In this document: positions 26,687-43,165 of the stretch, piece by piece | Position numbering within the stretch: position 1 is the first letter of the stretch | How the letters are laid out: every line of letters begins with the position of its first letter | Source: an uncultured Holophagaceae bacterium | GTDB lineage: Bacteria; Acidobacteriota; Holophagae; Holophagales; Holophagaceae | DNA length: 64,000 bases | NCBI GenBank assembly: GCA_903857495.1 | Contig: CAIOFF010000048.1 | Span: 124,001-188,000 of the forward strand | Direction: 5' to 3' | Made by a program: the position numbers and the translations under genes | The notes under the pieces: generated by a model | The model's database searches: none | Told to the model about the DNA's origin: nothing | The model's input: only the letters and a program-made list of their open reading frames with translations

Positions 26687-26780
26687 CTTTGGGTAACCTC
26701 ATGCAGATAACCTGAGCAAATAATGCTTACATGTCTTGACGAAGGTTGGATGGGAACGAGATTTTATTTCGGACCAGGCC

Positions 26781-26813
26781 CCTTTTTTGCCACCCGGGGG
26801 GATGGCAAAAAGG
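26781..26813 (+). promoter_or_regulatory. Hairpin in the hsp20 5' leader
   Basis: CCTTTTTTGCCA (26781-26792) pairs with TGGCAAAAAGG (26803-26813), an 11-bp stem with one bulged T and a GC-rich loop. It lies about 30 bases before the hsp20 ATG at 26844 and ends beside an AGG purine run, but not over the true Shine-Dalgarno AAGGAGG (26833-26839). It could be a heat-responsive leader element. Confidence 0.5.
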
Positions 26814-26843
26814 AGGCTCACATTCCCCATCCAAGGAGGCGTT

Positions 26844-27305
26844 ATGACGATCCTTCGCACCCGCACCCCTCAGTCGCCGCAGACCACGGCCGCGGCCCTG
26901 GAACCCTTCCGGCTCATGCGTGATTTCATGCGCTGGGACCCGCTCCGGGACTATGACCTGGGTGGCCCGGAGATGGCCTTCATGCCGAGCTTTGACGTGA
27001 AGGAAACGCCGGATGCCTACCAGTTCAAGGCCGACCTCCCCGGCATCCTCGAGGCTGATCTGGAGATCAGCCTCGAAGGCACCCGCCTCACCGTGGCGGG
27101 CAAGCGCGAGGAGGAGATCCTCAAGGAAGGCGAGCGCACCCACCTGGCTGAGCGCAGCCATGGCCGGTTCAGCCGCACCTTCACCCTGCCCGAGGATGTG
27201 GAAGGGGAGAAGGTGGTGGCCGAGCTCCGCAATGGTGTGCTGACCCTGATGGTGCCCAAGCGGCCCGAGGTCCGGCCCCGCAAGATCAACGTCAGTCTCG
27301 GGTGA
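26844..27305 (+). CDS. Hsp20-family small heat-shock protein
   Basis: A 153-residue cytosolic holdase chaperone. The alpha-crystallin domain spans about residues 45-145: PSFDVKETPDAYQFKADLPGI, the beta-sandwich EISLEGTRLTVAGKR, and GVLTLMVPK, with the C-terminal lobe and no clear IxI tail motif. Oligomerises and binds unfolding proteins in heat stress. ATG 26844 has AAGGAGG seven to ten bases upstream; longer in-frame starts would translate a leader hairpin and are rejected. It is divergent from the MCP gene. Confidence 0.94.
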   Translation: MTILRTRTPQSPQTTAAALEPFRLMRDFMRWDPLRDYDLGGPEMAFMPSFDVKETPDAYQFKADLPGILEADLEISLEGTRLTVAGKREEEILKEGERTHLAERSHGRFSRTFTLPEDVEGEKVVAELRNGVLTLMVPKRPEVRPRKINVSLG

Positions 27306-28598: not shown

Positions 28599-29981
28599 TC
28601 AGGGCGTGCGGGTCCGCTCCAGCAGGTGGCCGACGCCGTGGGCGTAGTAGTCCAGGAGGGGGGCCTTGTGGGGGGGCAGCACCAGGTGCCCGTCCACGGA
28701 CAGCAGGATGCGTCGAAGGGTCAGCACCCGCAGGCCCACCTCGAAGGTGCGCTGGAAGGACCCCCGGGGCAGGTGCAGGGGCAGGCCCAGCTCCTGGGCC
28801 CGGGCCAGGGTCTCCAGCACCTGGTCCCGGAAGGGCGCGCGGCCCGGCGCCTCGCCGCCCACCTCCCGGTAGACCCAGGCCACCACGGCCACGGGAGTGA
28901 TGGGGACCTCGTTCCCCACGGCCTGCAGCAGGTCCGCCGCGAAGGTCTCCAGCAGGGGGCGGCGGGTCTCCCAGTCCAGGTCGCGCAGGTCGGCGCCCCT
29001 CAGGGCCGTGGCGGCATGGATGGGGGTGCCGAAGTTGGCCACCGCGTAGCCGAAGCGGTGGAAGCGGCGGGTGGCGCCCCGCCAGACCAGGCCCAGCAGC
29101 CAGAGGGAGGTGCGCCGCAGCAGGGCTAGGGGGCCACGCTTGGGCTTGCCCAAGCCCTCCCGCACCAGGTTGCTGTCCTCCACCACCCGGTCGTAGTTGA
29201 TGCCCACGGGAATGAAGACCAGGTCCTTGGCTCCGGCCCGCAGCATGTAGTCCAGCAGGCCCAGCTTCGGGGCCTGGAGCCGCCCGTCCCGGCTGAGGCC
29301 ACCCTCCAGGAAGATGCCCTGGGTGGTGCCCTGGGCCACGGTGCGCTGCACGTAGCGCTCGAGTACCGCGTGGTAGAGCGGATCCCGGAAGCGGCGCCGC
29401 ACGAAGAAGGAGCCGAAGCTGCGGAAGAGCTTCTCCAGGGGCCAGACCCGGGCCCACTCGCCCACGGCGTAGGAGATGGAGACCCGGTTGGCCAACAGGA
29501 AGGCCACCAGTAGGTAGTCTGCGTTGCTGCGGTGGTTCATGACGTAGACCACGGAGGCGTCGCGGGGGATCCGGTTCAGCGCGGCCTCGGCGCTGCGGCC
29601 GATGCGCACCCGGTAGCAGGTGCGCAGCAGCCAGCCCGCCAGGCGCTTGCCGTAGCGGTAGGTGGTGATGAGGTTGAAGCTGGGGATGATCTCGTCCAGG
29701 TAGAGGCTCACGTCCGCCAGCAGACTGGCCTCCTCCCGGCCGGTCTCCTGGGCCAGGGCCGTCACCCGCTCGCGAAGGTCAGTGTCCGCCAGCAGCTCCG
29801 CCTTCATCCGCTGCTTGCGGGTGACCGTGACAGGGTTGAGCCGGAAGCCCAGCTCCCGCCGGGTCCGGAGCGCATGGCGCCAAGCCCAGCGCCGGAACCA
29901 GCGCTTCCCGAAGCGCCCGAGGAGCGCCAGGAACACAAGACCCCCCACCGCGAGGGCCAGCAACCACTGTTTGGGAGTCAT
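28599..29981 (-). CDS. Glycerol-3-phosphate acyltransferase-like (PlsB-type) membrane enzyme
   Basis: A 460-residue membrane-associated acyltransferase. Residues 5-23 form a membrane helix. Acyltransferase motif I is NHRSNAD (H150 and D155, HX4D), motif II GSFFVRRRFRD, motif III FLEGGLSRDG (E226), and motif IV VFIPVGINYDRV. The order and spacing fit the PlsB/DHAPAT group rather than PlsC. It would transfer acyl chains to glycerol 3-phosphate or a related acceptor in phospholipid synthesis. It is shorter than E. coli PlsB (about 800). Start ATG 29981. Confidence 0.87.
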   Translation of the reverse strand: MTPKQWLLALAVGGLVFLALLGRFGKRWFRRWAWRHALRTRRELGFRLNPVTVTRKQRMKAELLADTDLRERVTALAQETGREEASLLADVSLYLDEIIPSFNLITTYRYGKRLAGWLLRTCYRVRIGRSAEAALNRIPRDASVVYVMNHRSNADYLLVAFLLANRVSISYAVGEWARVWPLEKLFRSFGSFFVRRRFRDPLYHAVLERYVQRTVAQGTTQGIFLEGGLSRDGRLQAPKLGLLDYMLRAGAKDLVFIPVGINYDRVVEDSNLVREGLGKPKRGPLALLRRTSLWLLGLVWRGATRRFHRFGYAVANFGTPIHAATALRGADLRDLDWETRRPLLETFAADLLQAVGNEVPITPVAVVAWVYREVGGEAPGRAPFRDQVLETLARAQELGLPLHLPRGSFQRTFEVGLRVLTLRRILLSVDGHLVLPPHKAPLLDYYAHGVGHLLERTRTP

Positions 29982-33368: not shown

Positions 33369-34232
33369 ATGTCCGCCCTGGATCGCCTCGCGGAGCGCCA
33401 GCTGGTGGTGGTGACCGGGAAGGGCGGGGTCGGCAAGACCACCCTCGCCTCGGTGCTGGGCCGCCTCCTGGCCGCCCGGGGTCGGCGGGTGCTCCTGCTG
33501 GAGGTGGACCCGCGGGAGAGCCTCCACCAGGCGCTGGGGACCGAGCCCTCGGGCGGTGAGATCGTGCCCGCGGGTCCGAGGCTCTGGCTCCAGAACCTCC
33601 AGCCCGCGGCGGTCATCGAAGGCCTGGTCCATGAGAAGGTCCCCCTCGACTACCTGGCCCGAAAAATTGTGGAGAGTCCGGCCTTCCACCACTTCGTAGA
33701 GGGGGCTCCGGGCCTGAAGGAGACGGCCCTGCTGGGCTACGCCTATCGGACCCTGCACCAGGGTCGCCGCCCCCGGGCCGACCTGGTGATCCTGGATGCC
33801 CCCGCCACGGGGCACGGCGCCACCCTGCTCACGGCGCCGGGTCTGCTGGCCCAGGCGGCCCAGGGGGGTCAACTGGGTGACATGGCCGCAGACCTGGCGG
33901 CCTTCCTGGCGGACCCCACTCGCTGCGGCGTGGCCCTCGCCACCCTGGCGGAGGAGATGCCCATCCAGGAGACGCTGGAACTTCTGGAGGTGTTGCAGGC
34001 GAAGCTGGGCCTGCGGCCCGACCTGGTGGTGGCGAACGGGTTGTACCCCGTGCCTCCGCCGGGGCCCGGCCTGGAGCTGCTGAGGACCCGGCGCCGCCTG
34101 AACGAGGCGGAACTGGCCCGGCTCTCCGCCGCCTGGGACGGTCCCCTGGTGTCGCTACTGCTCCTCGCCCTGGACCGGGGGCCGGCGCTGATCGACCGGC
34201 TGGCCCAGGCGTTCCTCCAGGAGGACCGATGA
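33369..34232 (+). CDS. ArsA/Get3-like ATPase, first of a pair
   Basis: A 287-residue soluble ATPase of the deviant Walker A (SIMIBI) class. The P-loop GKGGVGKTT (17-25) includes the signature lysine K18, and the A' or switch region LLLEVDPRES and DLVILDAPATGHG (B motif) follow. ArsA/Get3 relatives act as dimers that carry metalloid anions or hydrophobic cargo. The partner gene starts four bases before this one stops (ATGA at 34229-34232). No arsenic genes are present, so an arsenite role is unlikely. Downstream lie PHA-granule genes. Confidence 0.9.
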   Translation: MSALDRLAERQLVVVTGKGGVGKTTLASVLGRLLAARGRRVLLLEVDPRESLHQALGTEPSGGEIVPAGPRLWLQNLQPAAVIEGLVHEKVPLDYLARKIVESPAFHHFVEGAPGLKETALLGYAYRTLHQGRRPRADLVILDAPATGHGATLLTAPGLLAQAAQGGQLGDMAADLAAFLADPTRCGVALATLAEEMPIQETLELLEVLQAKLGLRPDLVVANGLYPVPPPGPGLELLRTRRRLNEAELARLSAAWDGPLVSLLLLALDRGPALIDRLAQAFLQEDR

Positions 34233-35275
34233 GCGCCAGCGTGCTCGCGGGTGACCTCCTCGTGGTGGTGGGTGCGGGCGGCGTGGGCAAGACCACCCTG
34301 GCGGCGGCCCTGGCCCTGGGGTCCGCGCAGCAGGGGCGCCGCACCCTGGTGATGACCTTCGATCCCTCCCTGCGGCTCAAGGATGCTCTCGGCGTGGGTG
34401 AGGCGGCCCTGGACGAACCCATCCCCGTGCTTGGGGTGGCACCGGGGCGCCTGGATGCGGCCCTCCTCGATGCGAAGCGGACCTTCGACCGCCTCATCCG
34501 GACCTACGCCCCTGACGCTGCGGCCGCAGAGCGGATCTTCTCCAACCGGTTCTACCGGGACATGGCCGGCAACCTGGCGGGAATCCTGGAATACATGGCC
34601 ATGGAGCGGCTCTTCGAGATGCGGGCCTCGGGTCAGTACGACCGGATCATCCTGGACACGCCGCCCACGCGCCAGGCCATGGACTTCCTCCAGGCGCCGG
34701 AGCGGATGATGCACCTGGTGAACAACCGGGCCATCCAGTTCGCCATGGATCCCTGGTGGGACCGGAAAGGGGGCAAGCACCTCGCCCTGCGCCTGGCGGC
34801 CATGGGGGCCCTGGAGCTGTCGGACCGCCTCATCGGCCGGCGCTTCCTCCTGGATGTGGTGGAGTTCATCCGGGCTTTCGCGCCGCTCTTCGAGGGCTTC
34901 CGCCACCGGGCCGAGGAAGTCCAGAAGCTGCTGCGGGCCGAGGAGACCCGGTTCCTGCTGGTGGCGGGTCCCGGCTCAGACCGGGTGCCCGACGCGATGT
35001 TCTTCCTGCGCAAGCTGAAGGAAACCGGCCACCAGCTCGGTCCCATCCTGGTGAACCAGGTCCACCCGGAGCCCGGTCCCGGCGCGGGCCGGGGGCCGGG
35101 CGCCGAGCTGCTGGGCTTCCTGGCGACCCGGGACCGGCGCGGCCTGGAGCTCCTGCGGAGTCTCCTGCCGGGCTCCCAGGAGCTGCTCCCCGTGCCCCTG
35201 GAGCCCCATCCCCCCGGCGATCTGGCGGAGCTGGGCCAGCTGTTTAACAAATTAATAAACATAAAATCATTATAA
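34229..35275 (+). CDS. ArsA/Get3-like ATPase, second of a pair, lacking the signature lysine
   Basis: A 348-residue partner ATPase. Its P-loop is GAGGVGKTT (15-23): the catalytic lysine K21 stays, but the signature lysine that reaches across the dimer is alanine (A16). Switch elements MTFDPSLRLKDAL and RIILDTPPTRQAMDF are present, with a longer helical insertion (about 150-230) that could bind hydrophobic cargo. The last 12 codons (..LFNKLINIKSL) are strikingly AT-rich and run into the PhaR promoter region, which suggests that the original stop was lost. It likely pairs with the upstream ATPase, as Rv3679-Rv3680 do in mycobacteria. Confidence 0.88.
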   Translation: MSASVLAGDLLVVVGAGGVGKTTLAAALALGSAQQGRRTLVMTFDPSLRLKDALGVGEAALDEPIPVLGVAPGRLDAALLDAKRTFDRLIRTYAPDAAAAERIFSNRFYRDMAGNLAGILEYMAMERLFEMRASGQYDRIILDTPPTRQAMDFLQAPERMMHLVNNRAIQFAMDPWWDRKGGKHLALRLAAMGALELSDRLIGRRFLLDVVEFIRAFAPLFEGFRHRAEEVQKLLRAEETRFLLVAGPGSDRVPDAMFFLRKLKETGHQLGPILVNQVHPEPGPGAGRGPGAELLGFLATRDRRGLELLRSLLPGSQELLPVPLEPHPPGDLAELGQLFNKLINIKSL

Positions 35276-35293: not shown

Positions 35294-35339
35294 GCCGCGA
35301 TGCGGTAATTTTCTCCTGGCGCTCTTACCGCAATGCGGT
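35294..35339. promoter_or_regulatory. Paired 13-bp palindromes before phaR
   Basis: GCCGCGATGCGGT (35294-35306) and ACCGCAATGCGGT (35327-35339) are near-identical; the second is a perfect palindrome around a central A. Their centres are 33 bases apart, three helix turns, so a dimeric regulator could bind both on one face. A TATATT box overlaps the end of the second. PhaR auto-repression is the simplest reading. Confidence 0.6.
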
Positions 35340-35366
35340 ATATTTGGATCCGGAAAGGGGTCCAGA

Positions 35367-35837
35367 ATGATCCGCCTCATCAAACGGTACGGTGGCGCCA
35401 GCCGGAAGCTCTACGACACGGAAGAGAGCCGCTACGTTTCGCTCGAGGAGATCTCGGCCTGGATCCGGTCCGGCCAGGAGATCAAGGTGGTCGACAGTGG
35501 CACCGGCGAGGATGTCACCTCCCAGACCCTGGCCCAGAGCATCTACGAAGACCACAAGCGGGGCTCTTCCCTGCTCTCGGGCGATCTCCTGCACGAGGTC
35601 ATCCGGCGGGGCAGCGAGGCCCTGAGCGAGGGGGCCGATCGGGTCCAGGCCAAGGTTGACCGCATCGTCCGCACGTCCGTAGACCGCCTCGCCCTCGCCA
35701 CTGCAGCGCCGGAAGACATGGCCCAGCTGCGGGCTCGCCTCGCCGAGCTCGAAGCCACCCTGGCCGAACTGGAAACCAGGACAAGCCCCCCGAAGCCAGC
35801 CAGCCGACCCCGCTCCACCCGCAAGACCGCCCGTTAA
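35367..35837 (+). CDS. phaR: PHA synthesis repressor PhaR
   Basis: A 156-residue DNA-binding repressor. The N-terminal PHB/PHA accumulation-regulator domain is clear: MIRLIKRYGGASRKLYDTEESRYVSLEEI (cited as residues 1-29) and the RSGQEIKVVDSGTGEDVT block. The C-terminal half is helical (about 70-140) and Lys/Arg-Pro-rich at the end. PhaR in other bacteria binds PHA granules and, when freed, represses phasin and its own gene. ATG 35367 follows two palindromes and a spaced AAGGGGTCCAG site. It is followed, after 45 bases, by the phasin gene. Confidence 0.93.
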   Translation: MIRLIKRYGGASRKLYDTEESRYVSLEEISAWIRSGQEIKVVDSGTGEDVTSQTLAQSIYEDHKRGSSLLSGDLLHEVIRRGSEALSEGADRVQAKVDRIVRTSVDRLALATAAPEDMAQLRARLAELEATLAELETRTSPPKPASRPRSTRKTAR

Positions 35838-35882: not shown

Positions 35883-36308
35883 ATGGCCATCAAAAAGAAG
35901 ACCGACCTCATGCCCAGCCTGAAGGAATCCGCCTACCACATCTGGCTGGCGGGCCTCGGTGCCTACAGCGTCGCTGGAGAGGAAGGCAGTCGCCTCTTCA
36001 GCCAGCTCGTGGACAAGGGTGCGGAACTGGATGAGGCGAACAAGGAGCGCATCCTTGAGCTCGCGGAGCGCGCCAAAGGCCTGAAGGGCGACGCCAAGGG
36101 TGCCTGGGACAAGCTCTCGACTCCCTTCGAGGGCGGACTGGCGACGGCCATGCACCGTCTGGGCGTCCCGACGCGGGAAGAGATCGTCAACCTCACCCAG
36201 CGGGTCGAGGAGCTGACGAAGCTGGTGGCCAAGACCAAGGCCACCCCCAAGCCTGCGCCCAAGCCTGCGGAAGCGCCCAAGCGCAAGTCCAAGGCTGCAA
36301 AGGCCTGA
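35883..36308 (+). CDS. Phasin, PhaF/PhaI-type granule-associated protein
   Basis: A 141-residue helical granule coat protein. The core (residues 10-110) fits the poly(hydroxyalkanoate) granule-associated family of PhaI/PhaF: SAYHIWLAGLGAYSVAGEEGSRLFSQLV and EEIVNLTQRVEELTKLV. The C-terminal tail (about 112-141) is a run of Lys, Ala and Pro, a short version of the histone-like tail by which Pseudomonas PhaF binds DNA and helps segregate granules. ATG 35883 has AAGGAG seven bases upstream. Adjacent to phaR and the patatin-like gene, it fits a granule role. Confidence 0.92.
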   Translation: MAIKKKTDLMPSLKESAYHIWLAGLGAYSVAGEEGSRLFSQLVDKGAELDEANKERILELAERAKGLKGDAKGAWDKLSTPFEGGLATAMHRLGVPTREEIVNLTQRVEELTKLVAKTKATPKPAPKPAEAPKRKSKAAKA

Positions 36309-36315
36309 GGGGCCC

Positions 36316-37530
36316 ATGCCCTCGCGTCGCCGTTCAAAGGGGCGGGTGGGGCTCGCCTTGGCCGCCGGAGGAGTGCTGGGGGGCGTCTACGAGGTAGGCG
36401 CCCTCCGAGCCCTTGAGGAAGCCATTGCGGGCCTCGACCTGAACCGCCTGCGGGTCACCGTGGGGGTGAGCGCTGGCTCCTTCATCGGCGCCCACCTGGT
36501 CAACGGCGTCACGGTGACTGAAATGATCCGGGGCTTGGCTGCCGAAGGCGGCAGCGAGGCCCTGTTCGACCAGTCCATTTTCTTCATGCCGGCCTATCAG
36601 GAAATGGCGCGCCGTGGGCTGCAGCTGCCTTCGGTCATCAGCGAGGCGCTGACGCAGCTGGCCAAGGGGCCGGAGGATCCCTCCTTCATCGGGACCCTCG
36701 AGGGCCTCGGCCGATCCCTCCCGGTCGCGCTCTTCAGCAATGAAGGCATCCAGGATTACCTGGAGAAGGCCTTCTCGCGACGTGGCCGGACCGACGATTT
36801 CCGGAGGCTGCGGCAGAAGTTCTTCGTGGTGGCGACAGATGTGGAAACGGGCCGGCGGGTGGTGTTCGGCGACCAGGGCATGGACCACATCCCCATCTCC
36901 CTCGCGGTGCAGGCCAGCACGGCCGTGCCCGGCCTCTACCAGCCCGTCGAGGTCGAGGGCCGGGTCTGCGTGGACGGGGTGCTCCTGAAGACCATGCATG
37001 CCTCCGTCGCCCTGGACTACGGGGCCGACCTGCTGCTCTGCGTGAATCCCCTGGTGCCCATGGAGACGGGTTCCGAGGATGCCCGCGAGGCGCTCGGCAA
37101 GCGGGCGGTCCAGCGGGGCGGGCTGCCGGCCCTGCTGTCGCAGAGCTTCCGGATCCTCATCCACTCCCGGGCCGTCCTGGGCATGGAGCGCGCCGCCCAG
37201 AGCCATCCGGACAGCGACCTGGTGCTGTTCCAGCCGGAATCCACCGAGCACCGGCTCTTCACGAACCTCTTCCGCTTCCGCTCCCGCCGCAAGATCTGCG
37301 AGATCGCCTACCAGCAGACCCGGCAGGACCTCTGGCGGCGACGAGAGCTCCTCGGACCCCTGTTTGAAAAGCACGGACTGTCGCTTCAGCTGGAGGTGCT
37401 GGCTGATCCCTACCGGACGGTCTGGGACTGCATCGAAAATCCTCGTGAGAGGAGCGTGGCCGATCGGCTCGATGCGGCCCTCCGGATCCTGGAGGTCGGC
37501 CTCAGCCGGAAGGGTGGCAGGGGCCGCTGA
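36316..37530 (+). CDS. Patatin-like phospholipase
   Basis: A 404-residue lipid acyl hydrolase. It has the glycine-rich oxyanion-hole region AAGGVLGGVYEVGAL (about 16-30), the nucleophile GVSAGS with S52 and the catalytic-dyad D219 in VCVDGVL. There is no signal peptide. It would cleave acyl esters of phospholipids or neutral lipids in the cytoplasm; the place beside a phasin suggests mobilisation of stored lipid, which is inference. Eight bases separate it from the phasin stop, so they are co-transcribed. The C-terminal third is a helical, Arg-rich extension. Confidence 0.92.
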   Translation: MPSRRRSKGRVGLALAAGGVLGGVYEVGALRALEEAIAGLDLNRLRVTVGVSAGSFIGAHLVNGVTVTEMIRGLAAEGGSEALFDQSIFFMPAYQEMARRGLQLPSVISEALTQLAKGPEDPSFIGTLEGLGRSLPVALFSNEGIQDYLEKAFSRRGRTDDFRRLRQKFFVVATDVETGRRVVFGDQGMDHIPISLAVQASTAVPGLYQPVEVEGRVCVDGVLLKTMHASVALDYGADLLLCVNPLVPMETGSEDAREALGKRAVQRGGLPALLSQSFRILIHSRAVLGMERAAQSHPDSDLVLFQPESTEHRLFTNLFRFRSRRKICEIAYQQTRQDLWRRRELLGPLFEKHGLSLQLEVLADPYRTVWDCIENPRERSVADRLDAALRILEVGLSRKGGRGR

Positions 37531-39013: not shown

Positions 39014-39097
39014 GGCTTGACCCCAGGTAGTTCCTGGACTTCCTGGCGGGATGCGCGGACTTTGGGAGGGCGGGAGCCATGTGCGGAGGGACGAGCG

Positions 39098-39901
39098 ATG
39101 CGATGGGTCGTCTTCAACCAGAAGGGTGGCGTCGGGAAGTCCACCATCGTCTGCAACCTCGCCGCGATCTCCAGCCGCAAGGGGCGCCGGACCCTGGTGG
39201 TGGACCTGGATCCCCAGGGGAACTCGTCGCAGTACCTCCTGGGCCGTGAGGCTGCGGCCGTGGCGAAGCCGCACCTGGGCACCTTCTTTGAGGAGAGCCT
39301 GGGGCTCGGCCTGTTCCGGCGCAGCCTCCGGGAGATGGTCCACCCAACCCCCATCCCGAATCTGGACGTGCTTCCCTCCAGCCCGGAGCTCGAGGCCCTC
39401 CAGGGCAAGCTGGAGACCCGGCACAAGATCATGAAGCTCCGCGCGGCCCTGGACGAGCTTTTGGAATACGAGACGGTCTACCTGGACACGCCACCGGCCT
39501 TTGGCTTCTACACCCTCTCCGCCCTCATCGCCGCGGACCGCTGCCTGATTCCCTTCGACTGCGACGAGTTCTCCCGCCGGGCGCTCTACGCCCTGCTGGA
39601 GAGCCTGCAGGAGGTGAAGGAGGACCACAACCCTGGCCTGGAGGTGGCGGGTATCGTGGTCAACCAGTTCCAGTCCCGGGCCAACCTGCCCCGGCAGCTC
39701 GTCGACGAGCTCGTGGCGGAGGGGCTGCCCATCCTCATGCCCTTCATCTCCTCGTCCGTGAAGGTCCGGGAGTCCCACCACGCGGCCTGCCCCCTCGTGA
39801 TCCTGGAGCCCTCGCACAAGCTGTCCCGGGAGTTCGAAGCCCTGCATGGCGCCCTCGAAAAGCCGCGCCGGGCCACGAAACGAGCGCCCGCGAAAAATTA
39901 A
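39098..39901 (+). CDS. ParA/Soj-family partition ATPase
   Basis: A 267-residue deviant Walker A ATPase. It has KGGVGKST with the signature lysine (9-16), the switch I/A' LVVDLDPQGN (about 34-43) and the B motif VYLDTPP (about 128-134), then a ParA-type C-terminus with NQFQSRAN. ParA proteins pattern on the nucleoid and position plasmids, chromosomes or protein complexes. No parB or parS lies next to it. Its position divergent from a PHA-system gene suggests that it places granules or another cargo. The C-terminal tail is Lys/Arg-rich, suitable for DNA contact. Confidence 0.92.
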   Translation: MRWVVFNQKGGVGKSTIVCNLAAISSRKGRRTLVVDLDPQGNSSQYLLGREAAAVAKPHLGTFFEESLGLGLFRRSLREMVHPTPIPNLDVLPSSPELEALQGKLETRHKIMKLRAALDELLEYETVYLDTPPAFGFYTLSALIAADRCLIPFDCDEFSRRALYALLESLQEVKEDHNPGLEVAGIVVNQFQSRANLPRQLVDELVAEGLPILMPFISSSVKVRESHHAACPLVILEPSHKLSREFEALHGALEKPRRATKRAPAKN

Positions 39902-40169: not shown

Positions 40170-41462
40170 TCACAGCCTCCGCAGGGCCTCGAACTCCTCC
40201 TCGAAGGCTTCCACCAGGTGGGCCGGATCGGGCAGCAGGGCCTTGTCGGCGATGACGCCCACCTGCACCTTGCCGGCGAAGCTGAGGATGGAGATCCCGA
40301 TGCCGATCTGGGCCCGCTGAGGCACCCAGAAGAGGATGGACCGCACTTTCCGTCCGGCCATGGCGATGTCGTGCGCGGGGCCGGCGACGTTGGTCACCAC
40401 GGCGGTGCACTTGTTGGCCAGGAAGTCGATGAGGTTGCGGCTGATGATGTCGGGGAGGAAGGCCAGGAGGGCGCGCTGGAGGCCGTAGACCACCAGGGGC
40501 GTGGTGGACTGCTTGAGCTGGTCCAGCCGCTCCTTGACGGCGAGGATGCGGTGGGTGGTGTGGGGGGCGCGGGCGGGAAGCTCCAGCGGCACGGCGGCGA
40601 ACTTGTTTTCGCAGCGCAGGGGCATGCCTGGATGCCGCACGTTCACGGGCATCGAGATCAGGAACCGGGAGGGCGCCTCGGCGCCCTTGCGCGCCAGGTA
40701 GGTGGAAAACGCCCCGGAAACCGACGCCATGAGCACGTCGTTCACCGTGGCCCCGATGAGGTCCTTGGCCTTCTTCACCACCTGCAGGTCCAGCGGCTCG
40801 GTCCAGGCCACCCGCTTGGTCCCGGTCAGCTCGGGGCCGTGCAGATGACTGCTGTCGGGGAACCAGGCGAGACGGCGCAGGAGGACGCCTGGCGCGCTCA
40901 GGGGGATGGCCACGGCCCGCTGCAGGAGCTGCATGGCGCTCAGCCCCGCCAGGGGCGGGAGCGAGCCCTTGGCCATGCCGTCGGTGCGGTTCCAGGTCTC
41001 GTCCATCAGGGCGAACATGAGGGACACCAGGGCCATGCCGTCCCCGATGCTGTGGTGGATGCGGACCAGGAGGGCCGTGGCGCCATCCTCGAAGCGCTCG
41101 ATGACCTTGATCTCCCAGCGGGGCCGGTCCTCCTTCAGCTTCCGGTTGGCCATCCTCCCCACGTAGGCCTGGACGTCCGCGAGGCTCTTCAGGTTCTTGC
41201 CGCGGGCCGGGACGATGTGGCGTGCAAGGCTGAAGTCCTGGTCCACTTCCCAGTAGCTGAGGGGGCCCTGCTCAGTGATGCGGCAGCGGAGCCGCTGGAA
41301 GCGCGCGGGATCCGGCCCCTCAAAGATGCGCTCCTGGAAGGTCCTTCGCAGGGTCGGCACGTCCATGTGGTCGGTGATGATGACCGCATTGATCACCATC
41401 AGATTGGTGTCCGAGTCCTGCAGCCAGATGGCGTCGTTGGATGAAATGAGTTCCCGCATCAT
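40170..41462 (-). CDS. Wax-ester synthase/DGAT-family acyltransferase
   Basis: A 430-residue acyltransferase. The active-site HHxxxDG motif is HHSIGDG (H136, H137, D141), with the WS/DGAT N-terminal DAIWLQDSDTNLM start and the later NDVLMASVSGAF and PVNVRHPG motifs. Such enzymes join acyl-CoA to a fatty alcohol or diacylglycerol, making storage wax esters or triacylglycerol at the membrane. The start overlaps the kinase stop (TGATG near 41462), so it is coupled to the UbiB-type gene. The N-terminus is unusually short before the catalytic motif. Confidence 0.93.
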   Translation of the reverse strand: MMRELISSNDAIWLQDSDTNLMVINAVIITDHMDVPTLRRTFQERIFEGPDPARFQRLRCRITEQGPLSYWEVDQDFSLARHIVPARGKNLKSLADVQAYVGRMANRKLKEDRPRWEIKVIERFEDGATALLVRIHHSIGDGMALVSLMFALMDETWNRTDGMAKGSLPPLAGLSAMQLLQRAVAIPLSAPGVLLRRLAWFPDSSHLHGPELTGTKRVAWTEPLDLQVVKKAKDLIGATVNDVLMASVSGAFSTYLARKGAEAPSRFLISMPVNVRHPGMPLRCENKFAAVPLELPARAPHTTHRILAVKERLDQLKQSTTPLVVYGLQRALLAFLPDIISRNLIDFLANKCTAVVTNVAGPAHDIAMAGRKVRSILFWVPQRAQIGIGISILSFAGKVQVGVIADKALLPDPAHLVEAFEEEFEALRRL

Positions 41463-43165
41463 CAACCCCTACGGACGGCCAGGATGAAGGCAATGGTGAA
41501 AAAGCCGGACCACACGGGCCAGGGCGCCCGGAAGCCCATGGCCACGGCGCCCGCCACGAGGCAGGAGCCCGCGATGAGGGTCCCGCGGAGGCCCGACAGG
41601 GGGGACTCGGTGGGCTGGTGGGCGAACTTCTCCAGGACCCGGAGGCCATCGGTGACCAGCAGCGGCATCTTGGCCAGGGCATCCACCATGTCCGGCACGC
41701 CCCGCATGCCTTCGGTAAAGATCCGCATGGGGCTGAACTGGTTCATGAACAGGGTGCGGATGTGCTTCTTGCTCACTTCGGCCACGTCGAACCCGGGCAG
41801 CAGCACGTTCCCCACGCCCTCGAAGGTGACCAGGGCCTTCACCATCAGCACCAGCTCCACAGGGAAGTACATGCCGTGCTCGGCGCCCCGGGAGAGGGAC
41901 TGGAGGATCAGCTGGCCCAGGGAGAACTCGCTGAAGTTCGACCCGCGCTTCCAGCGGTTGGCGATGTCCACGGCATCCCGGCGGAAGGCATTGGGGTTGG
42001 CCCCTGGGCCCGGCTGGGCGATGGCCGTGAGGTAGCGGGCGGCGTTCTCGCCATCCCCCATGACCAGGGCGAAGTAGTAGTACATGAGCGCCCGGCGCAG
42101 GTCCTCGTCCAGTCGCCCCACCATGCCCAGGTCGATGAAGCCAAGCTTCGGGCCCGGCAGGATGATGAGGTTCGCCGGATGCAGGTCCGCGTGGAAGAAC
42201 CCGTCCTTGTAGAGCATGCGGATGATGGCCATGGCACCCAGGTCCGTCAGGTGACGCCGCTCTTCCTCCGGCAGCTCCAGGGCCTCGGGGTGGTCCGGGC
42301 TGAGGCCGTCGAAGAACTCCATGCAGAGCACGCTGCGGCCGCTGAATTTCCGGTAGATACGGGGGAACACCACGTCTGGCACATCGGCGAAGTGGCCGGC
42401 GAAGACTTCGGCGTTCTCCGCCTCCAGCCGCAGGTCCACCTCCCGCAGGGTGTAGGTGCAGAACTCGTTGACCAGCTGCCGGGGCTGGAAGCGCGGGATG
42501 ATCAGCTGGGCCACGGACCCGAGCATCCCGAGCAGCTTGGCGTCCCGCTGCAGGGTCTGGCGGATGCCCGGCTTGACCACCTTGAGGATCACCGGCTCGC
42601 CATCCACCGTGACGGCCCGGTGGGTCTGGCCGATGGAGGCCGAGCCCAGGGGGATGGGGTCGATGGACAGGAACATCAGGCCCACCGGACGCTTCAGGTC
42701 CCTCTCGATGATGTCCTGCAGGATCGGCAGGGGGACCACCGGCAGGCGGTTGAGCAGGTGCTTCAGCTCGTCGGTGATGGGCTTCGGCAGCAGGTCCTCG
42801 CGGAGGCTGAGGATCTGGCCGAGCTTGATGTAGGTGGGACCCAAGCGCTCCAGGCGGCGGCGGAACTGCACCGGAAAGGGCTCGTGCCGCAGCGTCCGGT
42901 CCACGAACAGCCGCCCAGGGAGGGACGCGAACCAGAGTGCGAACAGGCGCGCGCCCTTGAGCCCCCCGTCTTCCTGGCGGGCTGCCAGCTGGGAGAGCAG
43001 GCCGCCGAAGAGCAGCCCGAGGAAGTGCCGCCACGTGACAAGCATCCGCCGGATGAGGCCCTGGGGCTTCCAGGTCTTCATGATCTCGAAGCCTCGGCTG
43101 CGGAGCAGGTCCTCGTTGGATTCCGGTGCTGCCACGAAAGCGTCTCCCGCCGCTGGGGCGCTCAC
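41462..43165 (-). CDS. UbiB/ABC1-family atypical kinase
   Basis: A 567-residue protein-kinase-like ATPase with two membrane helices at the C-terminus (about 520-540 and 545-562). The KxGQ region IKLGQILSLREDLLP, the lysine-bearing PVILKVVKPG, the A-rich loop of the ADCK group LGSASIGQTHRA, catalytic HADLHPANLI and metal-binding GFIDLGMVG are present. It supports ubiquinone or other isoprenoid lipid synthesis in many bacteria. GTG 43165 has AGAAGGA six bases upstream and lies 19 bases after the HMG-CoA reductase stop; two upstream ATGs have no ribosome site. Confidence 0.9.
   Translation of the reverse strand: MSAPAAGDAFVAAPESNEDLLRSRGFEIMKTWKPQGLIRRMLVTWRHFLGLLFGGLLSQLAARQEDGGLKGARLFALWFASLPGRLFVDRTLRHEPFPVQFRRRLERLGPTYIKLGQILSLREDLLPKPITDELKHLLNRLPVVPLPILQDIIERDLKRPVGLMFLSIDPIPLGSASIGQTHRAVTVDGEPVILKVVKPGIRQTLQRDAKLLGMLGSVAQLIIPRFQPRQLVNEFCTYTLREVDLRLEAENAEVFAGHFADVPDVVFPRIYRKFSGRSVLCMEFFDGLSPDHPEALELPEEERRHLTDLGAMAIIRMLYKDGFFHADLHPANLIILPGPKLGFIDLGMVGRLDEDLRRALMYYYFALVMGDGENAARYLTAIAQPGPGANPNAFRRDAVDIANRWKRGSNFSEFSLGQLILQSLSRGAEHGMYFPVELVLMVKALVTFEGVGNVLLPGFDVAEVSKKHIRTLFMNQFSPMRIFTEGMRGVPDMVDALAKMPLLVTDGLRVLEKFAHQPTESPLSGLRGTLIAGSCLVAGAVAMGFRAPWPVWSGFFTIAFILAVRRG

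Follow-up and report, generated by a model that had tools for sequence, protein, structure and literature searches.

A divergent BagAB-like ATPase pair encoded beside probable lipid-storage genes in Acidobacteriota

Two adjacent genes of an uncultured Holophagaceae bacterium code for ATPases of the Get3/ArsA fold, only the first of which has the signature lysine of the deviant Walker A motif, and they are followed by genes of families shared with PHA granule loci. We analyzed them in a 64,000-nucleotide stretch of contig CAIOFF010000048.1, hereafter the window. The locus raises the questions of whether the asymmetry reflects a division of labor between two subunits, and of what such a pair would do at this place. 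The explanation that we favor, with a probability of roughly one half, is an obligate asymmetric heterodimer of the BagAB kind that would handle proteins for neutral-lipid storage inclusions.

The gene pair and its relatives

Genes A and B, here called bagA and bagB (Table 1), have the motifs that an earlier, sequence-only reading of this DNA had given, GKGGVGKTT with K18 in A and GAGGVGKTT with A16 in B, and both open reading frames lie where it placed them. Its description of two coupled, non-identical genes also held up: the start codon of gene B overlaps the stop codon of gene A in an ATGA sequence, an AGGAGG-like site is present 5′ of the start of gene B, and A is found directly 5′ of B in relatives as well. 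Pfam ArsA_ATPase matches both proteins at 76-77 bits (cut-off 24.3). A genome-wide profile search returned them as the only strong Get3/ArsA-like genes, the other matches being weak P-loop proteins with 21-35 bits, one of which is the ParA-like gene at 39.0 kb of the window.

Table 1. Positions of the bagAB pair and of neighboring features in the window
Feature	Position	Strand	Basis
Gene A, BagA-like Get3/ArsA ATPase, 287 aa, K18 in TGKGGVGKTT	33369..34232	+	ORF, Pfam, AlphaFold2
Gene B, BagB-like Get3/ArsA ATPase, 348 aa, A16 in VGAGGVGKTT	34229..35275	+	ORF, Pfam, fold match
First copy of the probable PhaR operator, palindrome TTGCCGCGATGCGGTAA	35292..35308		Window match count, conservation
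Second copy of the probable PhaR operator, palindrome TTACCGCAATGCGGTAT, spaced 33 bp from the first	35325..35341		Window match count, conservation
PhaR-like regulator (PHB_acc_N)	35367..35837	+	Pfam PF07879, 76 bits; TIGR01848, 78.6 bits, under the 109.45 cut-off
Phasin-like inclusion surface protein	35883..36308	+	Pfam PF05597, 99.8 bits
Patatin-like lipase/depolymerase, GVSAG and DGV motifs	36316..37530	+	Pfam PF01734, motifs
Wax ester synthase/diacylglycerol acyltransferase (WS/DGAT), intact HHSIGDG (HHxxxDG)	40170..41465	-	Pfam PF06974, PF03007, motif
Acyltransferase, probably glycerol-3-phosphate acyltransferase-like, wider neighborhood	28599..29981	-	Pfam PF01553, 63.6 bits; weak GPAT_C

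By sequence, the best solved relative of B is BagB (6bs3_B, E 2e-52), which has GAGGVGKTT itself, while BagA in the same structure (6bs3_A) has GKGGTGKST. AlphaFold2 modeled A with a pLDDT of 93.8 and B with a pLDDT of 79.8, the B model having a weak helical region at about residues 150-210 with values of 44-59 in places. In fold searches, 6bs3_B ranked first for the B model (Z 30.7), and 6bs3_A (Z 27.9) was tied with 3zq6_B (Z 28.4) for the A model; the matches to BagAB and Get3 chains extend along the full length of both models. The likeness to Rv3679-Rv3680 drawn in the earlier reading is therefore well founded: the Mycobacterium tuberculosis pair (BagA/BagB, PDB 6BS3-6BS5) has the same A-B gene order, the same split between a lysine in A (GKGGTGKS) and an alanine in B (GAGGVGKT), and both chains in one crystal structure, and for each window subunit it ranks at or near the top in sequence and in fold.

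The two pairs nevertheless differ, since that of the window lies in a separate deep clade. In a tree of B sequences, the window clade (69 rows) is split by long, well-supported branches from Actinomycetota BagB and from a second Acidobacteriota type, those long branches leaving the deep branching order uncertain. The scores are also far under the NCBIfam equivalog cut-offs (93.9 versus 400 bits for NF053622, 234.6 versus 521 bits for NF053621). Scores and clade together place the pair within the BagAB kind as a divergent branch from Acidobacteriota and Gemmatimonadota that falls short of orthology under curated criteria.

Get3 is a homodimer with the lysine in both subunits, and eukaryotic Get3 has a CxxC zinc site. 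The window pair shares with Get3/TRC40 the whole-chain fold (Z about 22-30), the deviant Walker A motif of A and the switch Asp residues, but its B subunit lacks the lysine, no CxxC motif occurs in any A or B examined, and TIGR00345 (Get3/TRC40) gives 77 and 65.6 bits against a cut-off of 135. ArsA has the same fold and forms a pseudo-dimer within one chain, much as the natural A-B fusions described below join two subunits; unlike B, both of its halves have the signature lysine, as we checked in an ordinary ArsA (locus L094) that came up in the same search as the fusions and has GKGG in both halves. The Pfam ArsA_ATPase match could still point to an ATPase for efflux of arsenite or another anion. 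We rejected this most improbable alternative: the window genome has no ArsB partner, ArsB exceeded its cut-off in just 2 of the 14 sampled BagB-positive genomes, CxxC is absent, and the ArsA model TIGR04291 scores 51 and 40 bits against a cut-off of 650. The earlier remark that no arsenic genes are near agrees with this, none being seen in the neighborhood.

The signature lysine and the ATP sites

The signature lysine of a deviant Walker A protein works in trans, on the nucleotide of its dimer partner. Comparison of this position across homologous pairs had been proposed from the window alone, and we retrieved 71 homologous loci for it with search patterns outside the P-loop, so the Lys/non-Lys split is free of an ascertainment effect. 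A lies directly upstream of B in 69 of the 71, the contigs of the remaining 2 end inside B, and no orphan B was seen among them. Position 18 of A is Lys in 66/66 aligned sequences, while position 16 of B is Ser in 33, Ala in 29 and Gly in 9 of 71, and Lys in none. An alanine unique to the window genome was thereby rejected: Ala belongs to the B-type state, in which Ser is about as common and Gly is also present. The closest relative (L007), 99% identical in B, has Gly, arguing that Ala as such is dispensable. Pairs of Nonomuraea, Tsukamurella and Nocardia and those of the second Acidobacteriota type follow the same Lys/non-Lys rule; one locus labeled Deltaproteobacteria (L053) shares the GTDB phylum of the window, its label being probably wrong, and so adds no independent phylum.

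The A/B lysine asymmetry is thus real, beyond chance, and not peculiar to the window genome. B subunits in general lack the lysine, BagB included, so its absence here is no new peculiarity. What is new is the lipid-storage genomic context of the pair.

In a tree of 77 rows, position 16 of B underwent at least 19 changes within Ala, Ser, Gly and Pro and never changed to Lys. Most codons for these four residues are at least two base changes away from Lys, so that the absence of Lys in B is weaker evidence than it appears; the one-step residues Thr, Val, Asp and Arg were not seen at this position either. The P-loop Lys is kept in both subunits, as are the switch-I Asp (D47 in 64/67 A sequences, D45 in 72/72 B sequences) and the switch-II Asp, which is D143 in A and in B. 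One might then argue that the position in B is simply relaxed, in a classic Ras-like P-loop, that both sites hydrolyze ATP, and that the asymmetry has no mechanistic meaning. The free switching among four residues, the codon distance to Lys and the P-loop Lys and switch Asp residues kept in both subunits are in line with such a view. We nonetheless regard it as unlikely, because Lys in A is invariant, B never has Lys, Arg, Thr or Val, and the split spans Acidobacteriota, Gemmatimonadota, Actinomycetota and the fusions, the pattern of a stable division of labor.

These fusions join bagA and bagB in one polypeptide in three genomes of a single Acidobacteriota family (L088, L089 and L090; positions 8840-10747 in L089). 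GPGG is present in the second half of all three, and GKGG in the first half of the two that are complete; the third is cut at the start of its contig, and only its GPGG half is visible. Such natural fusions indirectly support a 1:1 pairing of A and B, and the GKGG/GPGG split kept in them suggests that the asymmetry belongs to the pair. PhaR-like and patatin genes are found within about 7 kb of the fusion in L089 and L090.

The BagAB crystal precedent, the strict adjacency of A and B and the fusions that retain the Lys/non-Lys split support a heterodimer, and the reading that we infer as the best is that A and B pair with each other and form a single complete composite ATP site. Homodimers of each gene product are unsupported, in keeping with the lack of orphan B genes. 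A and B would form an obligate heterodimer of the Get3/ArsA fold, with K18 of A extending over to the nucleotide bound in B. Given the trans action of the signature lysine, the lysine of A would complete the site of B, a P-loop of the classic GAGGVGK(S/T) type with the invariant switch residues D45 and D143, and make it the single complete composite site; the site of A would be left without such a lysine and may be structural or regulatory. The invariant split, kept in the fusions, makes the question of one composite site testable with two point mutations.

The subunits also differ between switch II and the next strand, where B has 97 residues and A has 43, B carrying a long helical insert at about residues 147-238. 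In Get3, this stretch forms the helices that bind its hydrophobic clients. As the long insert is in B alone, each ATP cycle might open and shut a single client site located on B. The trans-lysine logic and the B-only insert would thus center both the one full ATP site and the one client site on B.

Probable storage-inclusion genes without a recognizable PHA synthase

The genes downstream of the pair are conserved. Among 50 Acidobacteriota/Gemmatimonadota loci with at least 2.5 kb downstream of B, 37 have bagA, bagB, phaR and the phasin gene in this order on the same strand, 33 of them with a patatin gene as well. About half of the 13 others have acyl-CoA synthetase or LCAT-like genes instead: an acyl-CoA synthetase gene directly upstream of A (L026, L057, L077), A-B followed by a histone-deacetylase-like gene and then an acyl-CoA synthetase gene (L044, L063), or an LCAT-like gene downstream (L034). 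One locus (L022) has phaR, phasin and patatin genes upstream on the opposite strand, and the rest show no obvious lipid gene. In L092, a single row of genes runs from an acyl-CoA synthetase through A and B to phaR, phasin and patatin. A WS/DGAT gene lies close to the pair in Holophagaceae and their near relatives.

Between bagB and phaR are two copies of a palindrome, accounting for 4 matches in the window (2 sites, both strands) where 0.14 are expected, and for two of the three sites with exact matches in the genome. Similar sites (up to 3 mismatches) follow B in 42/78 loci, compared with about 3% of background stretches. Their core, GCRNYGC, also occurs in the PhaR motif published for R. eutropha, YTKNTGCRNYGCANMAR (PMC12849132). 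This shared core and the location before phaR suggest PhaR autoregulation via these putative operators. Membership of bagAB itself in such a regulon is unsupported in the window: the sites precede phaR, none lies before bagA in the window lineage, and the excess before bagA is modest and confined to other lineages (7/75 loci with up to 3 mismatches, about 2 expected).

The sequence-only reading took the genes that follow for PHA-granule genes. Families of the PhaR and phasin kinds do stand directly 3′ of the pair; the PHA assignment fared less well. We sampled 199 Acidobacteriota genomes, 14 of which have BagB. PhaR was found in 14/14 BagB-positive and 26/185 BagB-negative genomes (Fisher p 2e-11; by genus 9e-10), although this and the following p values overstate independence, the genomes being related. 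No PHA synthase (PF07167, TIGR01836) was recognized in any of the 14 BagB-positive genomes, that of the window among them, while PF07167 was found in 17 of the 199, all BagB-negative. BagB and PHA synthase were mutually exclusive among PhaR-positive genomes (synthase in 0/14 versus 17/26, p 4e-5). WS/DGAT was present in 7/14 BagB-positive and 16/185 BagB-negative genomes (p 2e-4).

That PhaR is always present, PHA synthase absent and WS/DGAT found in half of these genomes makes a neutral-lipid inclusion locus the simplest reading, and the "PHA-granule" genes probably serve neutral-lipid inclusions. The locus resembles PHA granule loci in its PhaR and phasin families and in the operator-like palindrome, whose core is that of the PhaR motif; it differs from them in that no PHA synthase was recognized in BagB-positive genomes and that half of these have WS/DGAT. 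It could instead be a true PHA-granule operon served by a PHA synthase too divergent for the models used, seeing that PF07879 and PF05597 exceed their Pfam cut-offs (the window score for TIGR01837 is under its NCBIfam cut-off) and that Acidobacteriota with a recognizable synthase also carry PhaR. This seems quite unlikely to us, as the same two models detect synthases in other Acidobacteriota and the exclusion among PhaR-positive genomes is marked.

Among 13 sampled congeners, neither BagB nor PhaR was found. Four congeners (L101-L104), compared with 33.3-39.9 kb of the window, keep the membrane-protein/HlyD/MacB trio located upstream but not the bagAB-phaR-phasin-patatin block. The block is present in G356, a close relative within the genus. 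The cassette is gained or lost as a unit.

Candidate roles of the pair

Judging by its genomic context, the most likely task of the pair would be to serve neutral-lipid inclusions, not PHA granules, by handling hydrophobic or amphipathic proteins such as the phasin, WS/DGAT, the patatin-like lipase or membrane proteins. A more specific version, which we put forward only tentatively, is that of a dedicated asymmetric Get3-like heterodimer that delivers or assembles the surface proteins and enzymes of neutral-lipid inclusions, a bacterial lipid-droplet targeting factor in which a single composite ATP site would serve a single client site. The linkage to phaR and the phasin gene may reflect co-regulation only. 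A recognized WS/DGAT is missing from half of the BagB-positive genomes, and the pair of Tsukamurella, of the Actinomycetota type, adjoins whiB and transglycosylase genes, in contrast to the phaR-phasin-patatin and lipid genes of the window branch.

The strongest rival, in our judgment, is a general BagAB-type chaperone for membrane proteins or stress, whose place in a lipid operon would mean co-expression and no direct work on inclusions. Mycobacterial bagAB has been linked to protection from the toxicity of glycerol metabolism and nitric oxide (PMC10597346), and it alters survival in rifampicin and streptomycin (PMC12216072). Such phenotypes fit a general role, as do the different Actinomycetota neighborhood and the second Acidobacteriota type (L084-L086), which has no phaR in its flanks. 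The linkage to phaR-phasin-patatin or acyl-CoA synthetase genes nevertheless persists across a 69-row clade with deep branches, and PhaR is present in every BagB-positive genome; we consider a general chaperone rather doubtful on these grounds.

Positioning or segregation of storage inclusions in the manner of ParA/MinD would be another use for a member of the deviant Walker A superfamily with a conserved phasin/phaR linkage, and a ParA/MinD-like gene lies 3.7 kb downstream of the pair (39017-39901). That gene is linked to the pair only in the closest Holophagaceae, however, and Get3/TRC40/ArsA and BagAB chains fill the top 50 fold matches. No ParA or MinD chain is among the fold matches listed, an absence that is no proof by itself. 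We hold this role to be improbable. Our literature searches brought up no paper that ties ArsA-like or ParA/Get3-like ATPases to phasins or to the positioning of inclusions.

For the lipid-inclusion role that we prefer, the interest of the locus extends beyond this genome, BagAB-type ATPases occurring in several bacterial phyla. No published clients of BagAB were found in the accessible literature, and the context of the pair in genomes without PHA synthase leads to a specific hypothesis on such clients and on the role of phasins and PhaR without PHA.

Three further arrangements were observed around pairs of this kind. A gene for an HSP20/alpha-crystallin protein (26736-27305) lies 6 kb upstream of the window pair. 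The histone-deacetylase-like gene between bagB and the acyl-CoA synthetase gene is found in one sub-clade (L044:7034-8827, L063:7002-8777, L087:4417-6094). In the second Acidobacteriota type, a third Get3/ArsA-like gene with GKGG and a C-terminal ArsA_HSP20 domain is present 3′ of bagB (L084:7175-8353, L086:4652-6034), forming a three-ATPase cluster.
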